Assembly: GCA_017860345.1 (NCBI GenBank)
Contig: JAFNAV010000015.1
Location: 1 to 64,000 of the forward strand
Reading direction: 5' to 3'
From: Bacteroidota bacterium
GTDB taxonomy: Bacteria; Bacteroidota; Bacteroidia; Bacteroidales; Paludibacteraceae
DNA length: 64,000 bases
The notes beneath the pieces were generated by a model. The model saw only the letters and a list, made by a program, of their open reading frames with translations. It did not search any database and was not told the origin of the DNA. This document shows, one piece after another, positions 17,497-57,108 of this stretch; within the stretch, counting starts at the first letter, position 1; every line of letters starts with the position of its first letter. The translations under genes and the position numbers were made by a program.

Positions 17497-18174
17497 ATGC
17501 GAATTGATATCATCTCTGCCGTCCCCGAACTTTTGGATAGTCCTCTCAGTCACTCTATTGTGAAGCGTGCGCGCGACAAAGGGCTGGTTGAAGTAGTAGT
17601 GCACAACCTGCGCGACTACACCACCGACAAACATCGCAGGGTAGATGATTATGCCTTCGGGTTTAGTGCAGGCATGGTTATTCAGATAGAGCCGGTCGAC
17701 CGCATCATCAGTTATCTGAAAAACGAGCGTCGTTACGACGAGGTAATATACACATCGCCCGACGGAGAACGCTTTAACCAGAAAATGGCCAACCGCATGT
17801 CGATGTACGAAAATCTGATCATCCTCTGCGGCCATTACAAGGGTATCGACCACCGCATACGCGAGCATCTTATTACTAAAGAAATAACCATTGGCGATTA
17901 TGTGCTTACCGGAGGAGAGCTTCCGGCAGCCATCATGACCGACGCCATTGTGCGCCTTATTCCCGGAGCCATTGGCGATGAGCAGTCGGCGCTATCCGAT
18001 TCATTTCAGGACAACCTGCTGGCGCCACCCGTGTATACACGGCCTTCAGAATACAAGGGATGGAAAGTGCCGGATATTTTGCTATCAGGGCATCAGGCTA
18101 AGGTAGACGAGTGGAACCACCAGCAATCGGTAGAGCGTACCAGATTACTACGCCCCGATTTGCTTCAGGAATAA
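17497..18174 (+). CDS. trmD: tRNA (guanine-37-N1)-methyltransferase TrmD
   Basis: A 225-residue SPOUT methyltransferase that uses SAM to form m1G37 next to the anticodon, preventing +1 frameshifting. The knotted SAM site is clear: [16 protein letters not shown] and [14 protein letters not shown], and the tail [11 protein letters not shown] binds tRNA. Length is normal (225-245). It lacks the usual neighbours rpsP/rimM/rplS, as is frequent in Bacteroidota. It is followed 35 nt later by the DUF1294 gene. Confidence 0.96.
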
Positions 18175-18629: not shown

Positions 18630-19604
18630 ATGAAAAAAATCAAAACCGGCCTTATTGGCGGAGCAGGATACACCGCCGGCGAATTGTTACGCATTTTGGT
18701 GAATCACCCGAATGTAGAAATAGTGTTTGTAAACAGCAGCAGCAATGCAGGCAATGCGGTAACCGATGTACATAGTGGTTTGGTGGGCGAAACCAGTCTT
18801 ATCTTCACCTCTGAACTGCCGTTGGAACATGTCGACCTGATATTTTTATGTTCGGCTCACGGCGACAGCAAGAAGTTTATGGAGGAGAATAACGTACCTG
18901 CACACCTGAAAATAGTGGATCTATCCACCGATTATCGTCAGAAACGCACCGACCACAGCTTCGTATATGGTTTGCCCGAGCTCAACCGCGACGAAATAGT
19001 AGGAGCCAAACAAATTGCCAATCCCGGATGCTTCGCCACAGCTATTCAGCTGGCGCTGCTTCCACTTGCTGCGGCTGGCCTGCTTACCGACGAGGTGCAC
19101 GTGAACGCCATTACGGGTTCTACCGGCGCAGGTGTTAAGCCCTCGGCTACCTCCCACTTCAGTTGGCGCAACAACAATATATCTATCTACAAAGCCTTTG
19201 AGCACCAGCATCTGAATGAAATCGGGCAATCGCTCAGGCAGCTACAACCGGAGTTCGATAAGGCGGTGAACTTTATTCCCGTACGAGGTAATTTTGCCCG
19301 GGGTATTTATGCCACAAGCTACATCAACTGCCCACTGACCATTGAGCAGGCCAAAGAACTTTATAAAAACTATTATAAAGATGCAGCCTTCACATTTGTA
19401 GTAGATAAAAATCCGGATATGAAGCAGGTTGTAAACACAAACAAAGCAATTATTTATCTTGAAAAACATGGAGATAAACTGCTGATTGTATCTATGATTG
19501 ATAATTTATTAAAAGGAGCATCGGGGCAGGCTGTTCAGAATATGAATTTGCTTTTTGGTCTCGATGAAAAAACCGGGCTGGCATTAAAATCTATCGGATT
19601 TTGA
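18630..19604 (+). CDS. argC: N-acetyl-gamma-glutamyl-phosphate reductase
   Basis: A 324-residue enzyme that reduces N-acetylglutamyl phosphate to the semialdehyde with NADPH (third step of arginine synthesis). Bacteroidota often use N-succinyl intermediates instead. The Rossmann start is GLIGGAGYTAGELLRIL and the catalytic Cys lies in IANPGCFATA. The substrate motif ITGSTGAGVKPSATSHF and the C-terminal NLLKGASGQAVQNMN are intact. Length is typical for the short ArgC type. No other arg genes are near, which is unusual for Bacteroidota, where argC is often in an argGCDB cluster. Its leader carries copy C. Confidence 0.95.
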   Translation: MKKIKTGLIGGAGYTAGELLRILVNHPNVEIVFVNSSSNAGNAVTDVHSGLVGETSLIFTSELPLEHVDLIFLCSAHGDSKKFMEENNVPAHLKIVDLSTDYRQKRTDHSFVYGLPELNRDEIVGAKQIANPGCFATAIQLALLPLAAAGLLTDEVHVNAITGSTGAGVKPSATSHFSWRNNNISIYKAFEHQHLNEIGQSLRQLQPEFDKAVNFIPVRGNFARGIYATSYINCPLTIEQAKELYKNYYKDAAFTFVVDKNPDMKQVVNTNKAIIYLEKHGDKLLIVSMIDNLLKGASGQAVQNMNLLFGLDEKTGLALKSIGF

Positions 19605-19803
19605 AAAACAAATGGCACGAACGGATATTAAAACGCATCACAGTGGTTAGTTGTACTCGCCGAAACTGTGAAAATACTTAAATTTTAAGGAACTTATGCC
19701 ACAATATTCTGAAAAAAAACGCCAAAATCCTAAAATAATGTTATAAAACATCTTTTTTGATGAATATTTTATCAAAACTATTGCATATACAAAAAATGCG
19801 CCT

Positions 19804-19811
19804 TATCTTTG
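19804..19811 (+). promoter_or_regulatory. -7 box of the candidate small RNA
   Basis: TATCTTTG, with ATTG about 20 nt upstream as -33. No ORF follows on this strand before the terminator at 19931. Confidence 0.6.
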
Positions 19812-19816
19812 TATCG

Positions 19817-19970
19817 TGATTTTTTCATAGTATTAGATTTAAGGTTAACAAAAAAGATTGGTAGTCGGCCGTGAGGTTCACTACCTTTCGCATTTTATAG
19901 GGTTATAGTAAAAGAAATTTGAACCAATATAAAAAGCCACTTGCAAAACACAGATGCAAGTGGCTTTCAA
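19817..19970 (+). ncRNA. Candidate small RNA or orphan structured leader
   Basis: A transcription unit of about 150 nt is bounded by a TATCTTTG promoter and the terminator hairpin at 19931-19967, with no ORF inside. It begins with an AT-rich single-stranded stretch (TCATAGTATTAGATTTAAGG), then a hairpin GGTAGT ... ACTACC at 19860-19885. The opening looks like a leader sequence I recall as recurrent in Bacteroidales, possibly before cold-shock or RNA-binding protein genes; I could not verify this. Here no such gene follows, because the next + strand CDS starts at 21975. No name is assigned. Confidence 0.45.
19931..19967. terminator. Terminator between the small RNA and the SGNH gene
   Basis: AAAGCCACTTGCA pairs perfectly with TGCAAGTGGCTTT over a 9-nt loop. 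The T-run is better on the minus strand (serving the gene ending at 19992), but the hairpin also closes the + unit. Confidence 0.8.
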
Positions 19971-19991: not shown

Positions 19992-20570
19992 CTATTTGTT
20001 CTTCAGGGCACGAGCAATAATCTCAGCCATCTTTGCCGCCGCCTTTTCGTTTGGGTGAATATCGTCGGGGAAATCAGCACCGTCGTTTTTCAGTCCGCCA
20101 TACAGATCAACCACCTGCAAATTATTTCTGACAGCAAGGCGTTCTACAGCCGGAATCACACCATTAACTACCGTAGAGTCGTTAATGCCCCATTTGGTTT
20201 TGAATGCCGGAACCGGCTTACACAGCAGAATGCGGGGTTTGGATTTCAGGGTCGAAAAAGTATCGATGAGTGCCTGATAATCTTTTTCAAAATCAGCCAG
20301 CTTCCAGTTATAAGGCTTGGTGTCGTTGGTTCCAAGTTTGATAACAATAATATCGGGCTTAAACGCAAACACATTGCTAAACTCATTGCAGTTCCAATAC
20401 ACCGCATACCGTTTGCCCAACAATTGGTTTAGCACTACAGGGTAGCCATCGCGGCTTTGGCGCGAAATGCCTGCACCCTCGGTAATACTATCGCCTACGC
20501 AGGCCACTTTTACAGCACAGCTGCTTACCAAAAAAATAAGCAACAGAGGAATAATTGTGATTCTTTTCAT
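19992..20570 (-). CDS. SGNH/GDSL hydrolase lipoprotein
   Basis: A 192-residue esterase-type protein. The lipoprotein signal FLVSSCAV places the lipobox Cys at 18. SGNH blocks are complete: GDSITEG with nucleophile Ser28, an LGTND block and the C-terminal DDIHPNE with catalytic Asp/His. Such envelope lipoproteins remove acetyl or acyl groups from sugars or lipids; the substrate is not readable. The gene is monocistronic, with a minus-strand promoter at 20680-20687, leader element copy D and its own terminator. Confidence 0.88.
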   Translation of the reverse strand: MKRITIIPLLLIFLVSSCAVKVACVGDSITEGAGISRQSRDGYPVVLNQLLGKRYAVYWNCNEFSNVFAFKPDIIVIKLGTNDTKPYNWKLADFEKDYQALIDTFSTLKSKPRILLCKPVPAFKTKWGINDSTVVNGVIPAVERLAVRNNLQVVDLYGGLKNDGADFPDDIHPNEKAAAKMAEIIARALKNK

Positions 20571-39469: not shown

Positions 39470-42400
39470 ATGAAAGAAAATCACGTGATTGAACATGTTT
39501 GGCGGATTGATTTAAAACAACTGCTAAACAAGTGTATTATTCTTGCGATTGTACTATGTTCTTTCGGACTGGTATCAGCACAAAGCCCCTCCGGGAAAGC
39601 TTCGGGTGTGGTTTTGTCAAAAGCAAACGGCGAACCATTGATTGGTGTAAGCATCGTTATCGAAGGCACCACTCAGGGAACAGTAACAAATCTGGATGGC
39701 CAATTTGAAATTGAAGCCAAAGCCGGACAAACACTTAAAATTTCGTATATTGGTTACGAAACTCAATTTGTAAAAGTAACTAATTCCAAACTGGTTGTAA
39801 ATCTTAACGAAGAAACAACATCGCTCGACGAGGTAATCGTTATGGGTTACGGAGTTCAGAAGAAAAAATTAGTAACCGGAGCAACCGTTCAGGTCAAAGG
39901 TGAAGATTTGCAGAAAAGAAACTCAACCAACGCATTACAAGCTATGCAGGGACAAACAGCCGGGGTTAACATCACTTCGCAATCGGGTCAACCTGGTGGA
40001 GGTATTAAAGTGAACATTCGTGGTGTGGGAACTGTAGGTAACTCCAATCCTACCTATGTAGTTGACGGTGTAATAACCGGTGACATTACCTATCTGAACA
40101 ACTCCGACATCGAGTCAATAGATGTGCTTAAAGATGCTGCATCCTGCGCCATTTATGGTATCAACGGTGCTAATGGAGTAGTTTTAATTACCACCAAAGG
40201 AGGATCATCATCAGCAAAACCCAAAGGTCAATTGTCGTTCGACGCTTATTATGGAATACAAAACGCAGCCCGAAAAGCCGATTTGTTAAACTCCAAAGAG
40301 TATGCAATCATGCAAAACGAAGCTGCTATCAACTCCGGGAAAACCGTTTACTTTAATCAGGCCGCTATTGACGCGATGGGGACAGGCACCAACTGGCTGA
40401 ATGAAATGCTTGCCAGCAACGTACCCACTCAAAACTATAGTTTAAATGCCATTGGCGGTGGATCAACATCAAACTACTCGCTGGGGTTGTCATATACCGA
40501 ACAGGGAGGTATCGTAGGTGGTCAGGATTTGTCGAACTACGAAAGGTATAATGCCAGAGTTAATACCGAACATAAAGTTCTTGGCGATTACGTTAAAGTA
40601 GGTCAGCACTTCACTTTTTCGTTTATCAACCAGAAAGGAATCAAAGATGGCGACCAGTACAATAACTCTCTGCGTTCGGCATTCAACACAAGTCCGTTTC
40701 TTGAAATGTACGACAACGATGGGAACTTCCTCAATAGTAACAACTCAACTTTCTACAACGGCAGCCCATGGACAAACTCCGAAAGCAACCCGTACGCTAT
40801 AATGCTATATACCAACCAGAACAACACTAAATATCAGAAATTAGTGGGAGATATGTATGCAGAATTCCAGCCGGCTAAAAATCTTAAAATAAAAACTTCG
40901 CTCGGACTTGATTATGTAAACAAAACTGCACATAGTTACAGTCCGCAATACGAACTATCGCTTTATGCAAAAGATGATGAAACCATTACCCAAAGCACAA
41001 GCACCGGATATTCGTGGAACTGGGATAATACAATTAATTATGTTTTTGATAAAGACAATCACAACCTCGATGTACTGGTAGGCTCATCAATCCGTCAATA
41101 CAATGGTTCATGGACTTACGGCTCCAACAAAGGAGCAACCCTGTTTGGTGATCTCGAAAACGCATATCTTTCGAACTCAACCAATTCAACGGAAGCTACC
41201 CTTATGTCGTTGACCGGCAACAGAGACCAAAAAGTTGCCCATGCATCATTTTTCGGAAGATTGAATTACAACTACAACGAAACCTACATGGCATCTGTAA
41301 TTTTCAGAGCCGATGGTTCCACTATGTTTGCCAAAGGCCATCAATGGGGTTATTTTCCATCGATATCAGCCGGATGGGTTATCAGCAACGAGAATTTTAT
41401 GGAATCAACCAAAGGCTGGCTCGATTTCCTTAAGATTCGTGCAAGCTGGGGAACCAACGGTAATGACAATATCAAACCCAACCAGTATTTATCATTAATG
41501 TCATTGGTAAATGCACAATATAATTTTGGTTCAACAGAGAGTACACTAACTACAGGTGCTTATCCATCTACCAACGCCACCAAAGGTCTGAAATGGGAAA
41601 CTTCGGAACAGGCCAACTTCGGGTTCGATGCCAGAATGCTTAACGGACATTTAAATCTGAATTTTGATCTTTACAATAAAAAGACCAAAGACTGGCTCGT
41701 AATAGCCAGTGTACCAGCCACAGCAGGTGTTGCAACAGACCCTTACATCAACGGAGGTAACGTAACCAACAAAGGTGTGGAGTTACAACTGAGCTACAAC
41801 AACAGTATTGGAAAAGATTTCAAATACACTTTGTCGGCCTCATACTCCTACAATAAAAATACTGTTAACGACATTCCTACAGTAGACGGAATAATTCATG
41901 GAGGTACTAATATCTTGTTCGACAACGCACCTGAGTTCTATCGGGCATCAGATGGTGAACCTGTAGGATATTTCTGGGGATACAAAACAGCAGGTATTTT
42001 TCAGAACGAAGAAGAGGTAAGCTCTTATACCAACAAAGGTAAAGTATTGCAGCCAACGGCAGAGCCCGGTGATGTAAAATATGTAGATATAAATGATGAC
42101 GGGGTAATAGACGAAGACGACAGAACCAACATTGGCGACCCTAACCCACATCATTTCTTTGGATTTAGCGTAGCCTTAAACTACAAATCCTTTGACTTTT
42201 CAGTCACAGCTTCGGGTGTGGGTGGCAATAAGTTGGTACAATCGTACCGCAATCAGGCTTCGAGATATTCAAACTGGACAAGCTCCATTCTGGGTCGCTG
42301 GCACGGCGAAGGCACATCCAACACCATGCCAAGAGTAACTGAAGACAATGCCAACTGGGCTAAATTCTCAGATTTATATGTAAAAGATGGTGATTATCTT

Positions 42401-42649
42401 CGCATATCCAATATCACGTTAGGTTATGATTTTTCTAAGCTTATCCACAAAAAATTCATTACCAAATTACGTTTATACGGCGCTGTAGAGAATGCATTCA
42501 CATTTACAAAATACGATGGAATGGATCCGGAGGTAGGATTTAGCGCTGCCGGTCAGAGTGATACAAAGTACAATTTCGGTCAGGGTGTTGATATAGGATA
42601 TTATCCCCGTCCACGTACTTATTTAGTTGGTGTAAACATTCAATTTTAA
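39470..42649 (+). CDS. SusC/RagA-type TonB-linked outer-membrane transporter
   Basis: A 1059-residue transporter. The N-terminal extension and signal peptide end at LVSAQ (about 38). A carboxypeptidase-D regulatory domain covers about 45-125 (ASGVVLSKANGEPLIGVSIVIEGTTQGTVTNLDG), followed by the TonB-box-like DEVIVMGYG and the plug (about 140-245, with the SusC signature INGANGVVLITTKGG). The barrel ends YLVGVNIQF. It imports oligosaccharides made at the surface, energised by TonB. It is 14 nt upstream of susD. It lacks an STN domain, consistent with HTCS rather than sigma control. Confidence 0.96.
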   Translation: MKENHVIEHVWRIDLKQLLNKCIILAIVLCSFGLVSAQSPSGKASGVVLSKANGEPLIGVSIVIEGTTQGTVTNLDGQFEIEAKAGQTLKISYIGYETQFVKVTNSKLVVNLNEETTSLDEVIVMGYGVQKKKLVTGATVQVKGEDLQKRNSTNALQAMQGQTAGVNITSQSGQPGGGIKVNIRGVGTVGNSNPTYVVDGVITGDITYLNNSDIESIDVLKDAASCAIYGINGANGVVLITTKGGSSSAKPKGQLSFDAYYGIQNAARKADLLNSKEYAIMQNEAAINSGKTVYFNQAAIDAMGTGTNWLNEMLASNVPTQNYSLNAIGGGSTSNYSLGLSYTEQGGIVGGQDLSNYERYNARVNTEHKVLGDYVKVGQHFTFSFINQKGIKDGDQYNNSLRSAFNTSPFLEMYDNDGNFLNSNNSTFYNGSPWTNSESNPYAIMLYTNQNNTKYQKLVGDMYAEFQPAKNLKIKTSLGLDYVNKTAHSYSPQYELSLYAKDDETITQSTSTGYSWNWDNTINYVFDKDNHNLDVLVGSSIRQYNGSWTYGSNKGATLFGDLENAYLSNSTNSTEATLMSLTGNRDQKVAHASFFGRLNYNYNETYMASVIFRADGSTMFAKGHQWGYFPSISAGWVISNENFMESTKGWLDFLKIRASWGTNGNDNIKPNQYLSLMSLVNAQYNFGSTESTLTTGAYPSTNATKGLKWETSEQANFGFDARMLNGHLNLNFDLYNKKTKDWLVIASVPATAGVATDPYINGGNVTNKGVELQLSYNNSIGKDFKYTLSASYSYNKNTVNDIPTVDGIIHGGTNILFDNAPEFYRASDGEPVGYFWGYKTAGIFQNEEEVSSYTNKGKVLQPTAEPGDVKYVDINDDGVIDEDDRTNIGDPNPHHFFGFSVALNYKSFDFSVTASGVGGNKLVQSYRNQASRYSNWTSSILGRWHGEGTSNTMPRVTEDNANWAKFSDLYVKDGDYLRISNITLGYDFSKLIHKKFITKLRLYGAVENAFTFTKYDGMDPEVGFSAAGQSDTKYNFGQGVDIGYYPRPRTYLVGVNIQF

Positions 42650-56052: not shown

Positions 56053-57108
56053 ATGAAAAAAATATTTTACACCATCCTCCTGACAACGGGATTTTTCTGC
56101 TTTGCAATAACTCCTGTTTCGTGCGGCGACGACAATCCCAATCCGAAGGATACAACCAGAACTGAAACAAGCGTCTTTGCCAAAGGCGCCGACATCAGCT
56201 GGCTTACTGAAATGGAAACATCGAACAAGAAGTTTTATAACTCCTCTGGGACAGCCACTGAATGCATATCACTCCTCAAAAGTTTGGGCATGAATTCCAT
56301 CAGACTCAGAGTATGGGTAAACCCTGCAAACGGCTGGAACAACACTGATGACGTACTGGCTAAGGCGCGTCGCGCCAATAATCTGGGGATGCGTATTATG
56401 ATCGATTTTCATTACAGCGACACCTGGGCCGATCCGGGCCATCAGACGAAACCTGCGGCATGGGTCAATATGAATGTTACCAACCTGAAAACAGCCGTAG
56501 CCAACCACACCTCTGCTGTACTCACTACACTCAAGAACAACGAAATAACGCCTGAATGGGTACAGGTAGGAAACGAAACCAATGATGGAATGCTTTGGGA
56601 AGATGGTAGAGCATCGGTAAGTATGGCCAATTATGCCGCACTTACATTAGCCGGATATAATGCGGTGAAATCGGTGTTTCCAAGCACTAAAGTTATCGTT
56701 CATCTGAGTGATGGGTATAACAACAGCATGTACAGATGGATTTTTGACGGGTTGAAAAATAACGGTGCAAAATGGGATGTGATAGGCATGTCGGTATACC
56801 CTTACTGGTACACTACCCAAAATGACTGGGCCGCCTGCAACGCAAAAGTGCTGACCAATATGAATGATATGGTAAGCCGTTACGGATCGGAAGTGATGGT
56901 GGTGGAATGCGGTATGAGCTGGGATAGTCCGTTGGTATGCAAAAACTTCCTGACAGACCTGATTGCTAAAGTGAAATTAGTAAACAACAATAAAGGTATC
57001 GGTGTAATGTATTGGGAACCACAATGCTATGGTGGCTGGAAAAATTATACACTCGGAGCGTTTGACAATAGCGGAAAACCCACCGCAGCGCTGGATGCGT
57101 TTAAATAA
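56053..57108 (+). CDS. GH53 endo-beta-1,4-galactanase (lipoprotein)
   Basis: A 351-residue enzyme with a lipoprotein-type signal (TPVSCGDDN, Cys about 24). The single GH53 domain starts FAKGADISWLTEMET and shows SIRLRVWVNP and MIDFHYSDTWADPGHQ. The acid/base is Glu175 in VQVGNETNDG and the nucleophile Glu285 in VMVVECGMSW. It cuts beta-1,4-galactan or arabinogalactan I side chains of pectin, probably at the outer surface. It stands alone with its own promoter and no SusC/SusD next to it. The released galactose could feed the galM/galK pair 3-5 kb downstream. Confidence 0.94.
   Translation: MKKIFYTILLTTGFFCFAITPVSCGDDNPNPKDTTRTETSVFAKGADISWLTEMETSNKKFYNSSGTATECISLLKSLGMNSIRLRVWVNPANGWNNTDDVLAKARRANNLGMRIMIDFHYSDTWADPGHQTKPAAWVNMNVTNLKTAVANHTSAVLTTLKNNEITPEWVQVGNETNDGMLWEDGRASVSMANYAALTLAGYNAVKSVFPSTKVIVHLSDGYNNSMYRWIFDGLKNNGAKWDVIGMSVYPYWYTTQNDWAACNAKVLTNMNDMVSRYGSEVMVVECGMSWDSPLVCKNFLTDLIAKVKLVNNNKGIGVMYWEPQCYGGWKNYTLGAFDNSGKPTAALDAFK

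Follow-up and report, generated by a model that had tools for sequence, protein, structure and literature searches.

A probable FopS-family small RNA gene downstream of argC in a Paludibacter-like member of the Bacteroidales

Introduction

In Bacteroides thetaiotaomicron, FopS denotes 14 paralogous small RNAs (sRNAs) that combine a terminator hairpin with a single-stranded seed (R1′) at the 5′ end. FopS in Bacteroides gut bacteria switches off sugar importers (PMC11697453). For FopS-10 of B. thetaiotaomicron, binding by the protein RbpB and the countering of the sRNA by this protein have been shown experimentally, and the published range of FopS, obtained with a 28-base-word BLAST, is the Bacteroidaceae (PMC11697453).

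Here we describe a short transcription unit in the first 64,000 nucleotides (hereafter the window) of contig JAFNAV010000015.1 from a Paludibacteraceae genome. A first-pass annotation had read it as a small independent unit without a gene to lead. That reading agrees with our results, as promoter, RNA and position after argC are all conserved. Judged by its matches to described RNA families, the unit is an already known kind of sRNA and not an unknown orphan.

Results

Anatomy of the transcription unit

The unit occupies positions 19780-19966. Its features and neighbouring genes are as follows.

18630..19604, plus strand: argC, the syntenic upstream neighbour, with Pfam semialdehyde dehydrogenase domains
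19780..19783, plus strand: -33 promoter box ATTG; TTG present in nearly all copies, intervening sequence unconserved
19804..19811, plus strand: -7 promoter box TATCTTTG (TAnnTTTG), read directly; pattern in 58/60 copies
19816..19849, plus strand: R1′-type seed GTGATTTTTTCATAGTATTAGATTTAAGGTTAAC and predicted 5′ end; start of the RF04319 and RF04180 matches
19860..19885, plus strand: first hairpin GGTAGTCGGCCGTGAGGTTCACTACC, GGTAGT-CGGCC-GTGA-GGTTC-ACTACC; aligned by Rfam with the FopS hairpin, with compensatory changes
19886..19899, plus strand: imperfect U-rich tail TTTCGCATTTTATA, a possible weak first terminator; end of the RF04319 match
19934..19966, both strands: strong bidirectional terminator hairpin with a 12-bp stem, common to the convergent SGNH gene
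19992..20570, minus strand: SGNH/GDSL hydrolase gene (PF13472), the convergent neighbour; stop at 19992

The feature previously placed at 19804-19970 is real; the start given for it is that of the -7 box, whereas the RNA is predicted to begin at about 19816. The -7 box had been recognized correctly, and to it we add the unlisted ATTG box 20 nt upstream. The arrangement ATTG-N20-TATCTTTG corresponds to a canonical sigma-ABfr promoter (-33 TTTG, -7 TAnnTTTG). A sigma-70 scan over the unit was uninformative. The argC stop codon at 19604 lies 200 nt before the -7 box, in line with the distance of about 200 nt given earlier.

The AT-rich leader described as unstructured corresponds to a 34-nt stretch from about 19816, and RNA folding leaves nearly all of the seed (19816-19849) unpaired. 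An A-run lies between this seed and the first hairpin, whose GGTAGT and ACTACC arms are found as annotated. A linker then separates the U-rich tail from the 12-bp terminator hairpin. This strong terminator had also been noticed, and here we amend the description: it is bidirectional, with a better U-run on the minus strand (GGCTTTTTATATT) than on the plus strand (GGCTTTCAATTT). The better minus-strand U-run suggests that the terminator acts for the convergent SGNH gene as well, and perhaps chiefly so. A consensus terminator scan called none at 19934-19966, in keeping with the 8-nt loop limit of the scan versus the 9-nt loop found here. The fold of the unit is more stable than that of 200 out of 200 shuffled sequences (z = -4.2), and no reading frame is open through 19780-19966, as had been stated. 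Depending on the terminator used, the RNA is predicted to be around 84 or 150 nt long.

Family identity and copies in the genome

An Rfam scan, proposed in the first-pass annotation, matched no family at gathering thresholds (56 bits for FopS RF04319, 115 for GibS RF04182 and 80.4 for BTnc231 RF04180). Run in E-value mode, it matched FopS with 54.2 bits (E = 2.1e-7; positions 1-71 of the 71-position model), 1.8 bits below the FopS gathering score, and GibS with 62.2 bits (E = 2.6e-8; whole model covered). BTnc231 scored 25.8 bits. We rejected the identification of the unit as GibS itself because 62.2 bits is far under 115; the promoter motif 2 of GibS is also lacking.

The same genome holds two further copies (63.3 and 62.8 bits), both above the FopS cut-off, with a 5′ leader identical to that of the window copy letter for letter. 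The genome, which is 86% complete, thereby contains three strong copies, consistent with the multicopy nature of FopS. Downstream of the copy on contig 71, a susC-like gene begins after about 450 nt. Two other marks of FopS are recognizable: a single-stranded 5′ R1′ seed is found by Rfam alignment, fold and invariance in 21 copies, and the sequence offers 3′ hairpins of the Rho-independent type, one covarying (19860-19885) and one strong (19934-19966). Taken as a whole, the unit is very probably a FopS-family small RNA gene.

The opening had been likened to a leader in other Bacteroidales, possibly of cold-shock-type genes. The resemblance was right in substance, the opening being the R1′ seed of FopS and GibS; the cold-shock link is not supported. 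One gene for a cold-shock domain (CSD) protein was detected in the genome, on another contig, and the next gene at the present locus is the convergent SGNH hydrolase. The roughly 100 nt upstream of that sole detected CSD gene (to the contig end) contain no FopS-like leader.

We also observed a tandem pair of divergent FopS-like units, AAATTTTTCATAGTTAAGGTTTAGGTTAAAATGTGCAATGGGTGGC...GTTACCCATTG (locus L016 1220-1640; G000:C50 about 17650-18000, minus strand), with promoter-like boxes and 28-31 bits to RF04319; L045 and L048 are similar. Units of this type are possibly a separate Bacteroidales sRNA family.

Conservation among relatives

All 23 same-genus genomes found in a search of relatives contain FopS matches, between 1 and 6 each. 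Many of these copies are orthologs, and the copy counts given here are therefore not counts of independent events. Of 60 copies, 58 carry TAnnTTTG and 59 have a TTG at exactly 20 nt before the -7 box, with variable bases in between. In an alignment of 21 representative copies, only the first of the initial 34 nt varies.

The first hairpin varies in sequence and keeps its pairing. Across 15 distinct hairpins of the window type, the four loop-proximal pairs are paired in all, with the alternatives C-G/T-A, G-C/A-T/G-T and T-A/A-T/C-G/G-T. Six hairpins of a shorter type show the alternatives A-T/G-C/T-A and A-T/C-G. Of 58 copies, 27 have another strong terminator in the 130 nt after the first hairpin, compared to 9 of 290 shuffled sequences, and these second hairpins are mostly dissimilar in sequence between copies. 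This additional terminator and the interruption in the U-tail after the first hairpin suggest a two-hairpin RNA of about 150 nt, like GibS, and not the short form of FopS.

The invariant 5′ leader, the compensatory hairpin changes and the exact promoter spacing make this, as a pattern of sequence conservation, that of a functional trans-acting RNA, and a decayed leader is thereby excluded.

Genomic neighbourhood and alternative origins

The nearest named relative of the upstream ArgC is from a Paludibacter metagenome-assembled genome (81% identity). A FopS copy lies downstream of argC in the same direction in 12 out of 24 genomes, that of the window included. Two congeners (L139 and L142) have three tandem FopS copies downstream of argC, spaced by about 380-410 nt.

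An RNA on the same strand as argC, 200 nt after it and with no strong terminator between, could be processed from the 3′ UTR of the argC mRNA, and FopS-14 of B. thetaiotaomicron is indeed 3′-UTR-derived (PMC11697453). The -33 and -7 boxes are nevertheless kept upstream of nearly every copy, at unrelated loci too, which makes this origin very improbable. We give equally little credence to the unit being a copy of a leader or attenuator, that is, a prematurely terminated 5′ leader standing here without its gene. A leader-like arrangement exists in the FopS family, as one subgroup (L020-L038) precedes a Gate-domain gene by 76-93 nt in several congeners. At the present locus the next gene is convergent, and the unit keeps its position after argC across genomes with no gene there to lead. 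Moreover, the invariant seed and the hairpin maintained by compensatory changes contradict the decayed copy of a gene leader that the first-pass annotation had allowed for. Finally, a chance resemblance with no gene behind it would fit the score of the window copy below the Rfam gathering threshold, yet its probability is negligible in view of the E-value of 2e-7, the paralogs, the congeners, the synteny and the covariation. The reading as a FopS-family gene with its own promoter is the one we retain.

The subgroup just mentioned (L020-L038, with L129 and L132; congeners and one other family) has the seed CATGGTATTAG, mostly preceded by the palindrome ATGTTGTACAACAT. In several genomes, what follows is the gene for the nucleoside-recognition (Gate) membrane protein after 76-93 nt, or a TetR gene at a greater distance. 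It was not found in the genome studied here. Members are possibly TetR-controlled FopS RNAs doubling as leaders.

Predicted pairing of the seed with susC start regions

The proposed mechanism is that of a trans-acting sRNA made from its own housekeeping-type Bacteroidota promoter. On mRNAs for susC-like glycan importers of the outer membrane, its 5′ R1′ seed would base-pair over the start codon, and this pairing would block ribosome entry and shut off polysaccharide utilisation operons. By analogy with B. thetaiotaomicron, an RbpB-like RRM protein may bind the FopS RNA and counter its action. The genome encodes two candidates for this role, small RRM_1 proteins of 81 and 103 aa.

The genome has around 29 susC-like genes. 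Pairing was computed from -50 to +30 around the start codon, with 150 dinucleotide shuffles as control seeds; the statistics cover 25 susC genes against 172-173 background genes, from genome stretches. In the own genome with hand-chosen starts, the seed pairs with susC genes at a mean of -14.0 kcal/mol compared to -11.1 kcal/mol for 173 others (p = 1e-4). With a mechanical start rule, the susC excess has p = 0.02 in each of two FopS-bearing genomes, the own one and that of a congener. None of the 150 shuffled seeds matched the susC difference in either of these two genomes. In a FopS-free genome of the order, the susC signal is weaker (8 genes; matched by 7 of 150 shuffles), and results from CTAAC-type motifs shared by the susC leaders there. 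Compared to stretches of susC coding sequence, the susC start regions have no significant advantage in pairing (p = 0.19 and 0.10).

The susC gene with the strongest predicted pairing in the genome lies in the window:

39470..42649, plus strand: susC-like transporter gene, predicted target (TIGR04056, 895 bits)

Here seed nucleotides 1-33 are predicted to pair with positions -23 to +15 at -22.0 kcal/mol. The GH53 gene at 56053 reaches -22.1 kcal/mol; we rejected it as a specific target, the pairing being unconserved in most orthologs. Given this result and the susC coding control, single targets are candidates only. Positions 36571-61103 of the window make up a polysaccharide utilisation region. 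It contains two GH31 genes as well as susC-like, GH53 galactanase and aldose epimerase genes, and it holds the two best predicted pairing sites among the stretches scanned.

An RNA with the same seed might instead act mainly on mRNAs other than susC. The seed complement includes AUG-AAA-AA, compatible with many start codons. When up to 2 mismatches are allowed, it is found 97 times on the forward strand compared to 52 for the reversed control. We tried this pattern count as a way to name targets and found it too unspecific. Some susC signal in the FopS-free genome points in the same direction. Two observations speak against a different regulon: in both FopS-bearing genomes, the susC genes surpass the background genes and every shuffled seed, and susC-like mRNAs are the proven targets in B. 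thetaiotaomicron (PMC11697453). We consider a different regulon rather unlikely, and repression of susC to be probably the main action of this FopS RNA, as predicted from the pairing.

Range of the family

Of 295 Bacteroidales genomes sampled, 57 gave FopS matches, distributed over 21 numbered families; genomes sampled from the phylum outside Bacteroidales gave none. The presence of FopS in the Paludibacter-like host studied here shows the family to be spread much wider than published.

The FopS seed is also present on mobile DNA: 33 IMG/VR contigs (L364-L396), three phage records (H1-H3), among them Bacteroides phage BX-TP2, and 17 plasmid records (H4-H20), with plasmids from Bacteroides, Phocaeicola, Parabacteroides and Prevotella.

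Discussion

What is new here is the wide Bacteroidales range and the two-hairpin form; the FopS kind itself was already known, and the added information is modest. We tentatively propose, as a possibility that falls a little short of probable, that glycan-importer control by FopS is an old post-transcriptional circuit of the whole order rather than a gut adaptation of the Bacteroidaceae, and that its form in Paludibacter-like bacteria is two-hairpin and GibS-like, often located after argC, with a seed that fits the susC leaders collectively. The matches across 21 Bacteroidales families make the FopS-RbpB circuit a candidate general control layer over polysaccharide utilisation loci. In practice, likely members such as the window copy escape detection at the Rfam gathering score for FopS.

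Comparison with known small RNAs

Three described sRNAs resemble the unit. BTnc231 (RF04180) has a similar opening, UUUUUUCAUAG...UUAGAUUUAAGGUUA, but its hairpins differ and the score falls far from its gathering value (25.8 versus 80.4 bits). GibS (RF04182) has the R1 start in common with the unit and the same two-hairpin layout of about 150 nt, matched over the full model at 62.2 bits; its promoter, however, is motif 2 (PMC7366714), whereas the unit has the TTG and TAnnTTTG boxes.

FopS (RF04319) of B. thetaiotaomicron is likewise intergenic and multicopy, with a 5′ single-stranded seed, a hairpin and a sigma-ABfr-type promoter, and its model covers the unit end to end. The window copy differs from it in that its hairpin is extended and ends in a GNRA-type loop, its U-tail is interrupted and a second strong terminator follows. 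It is also one of 3 copies, compared to 12-15, in a host outside the Bacteroidaceae.
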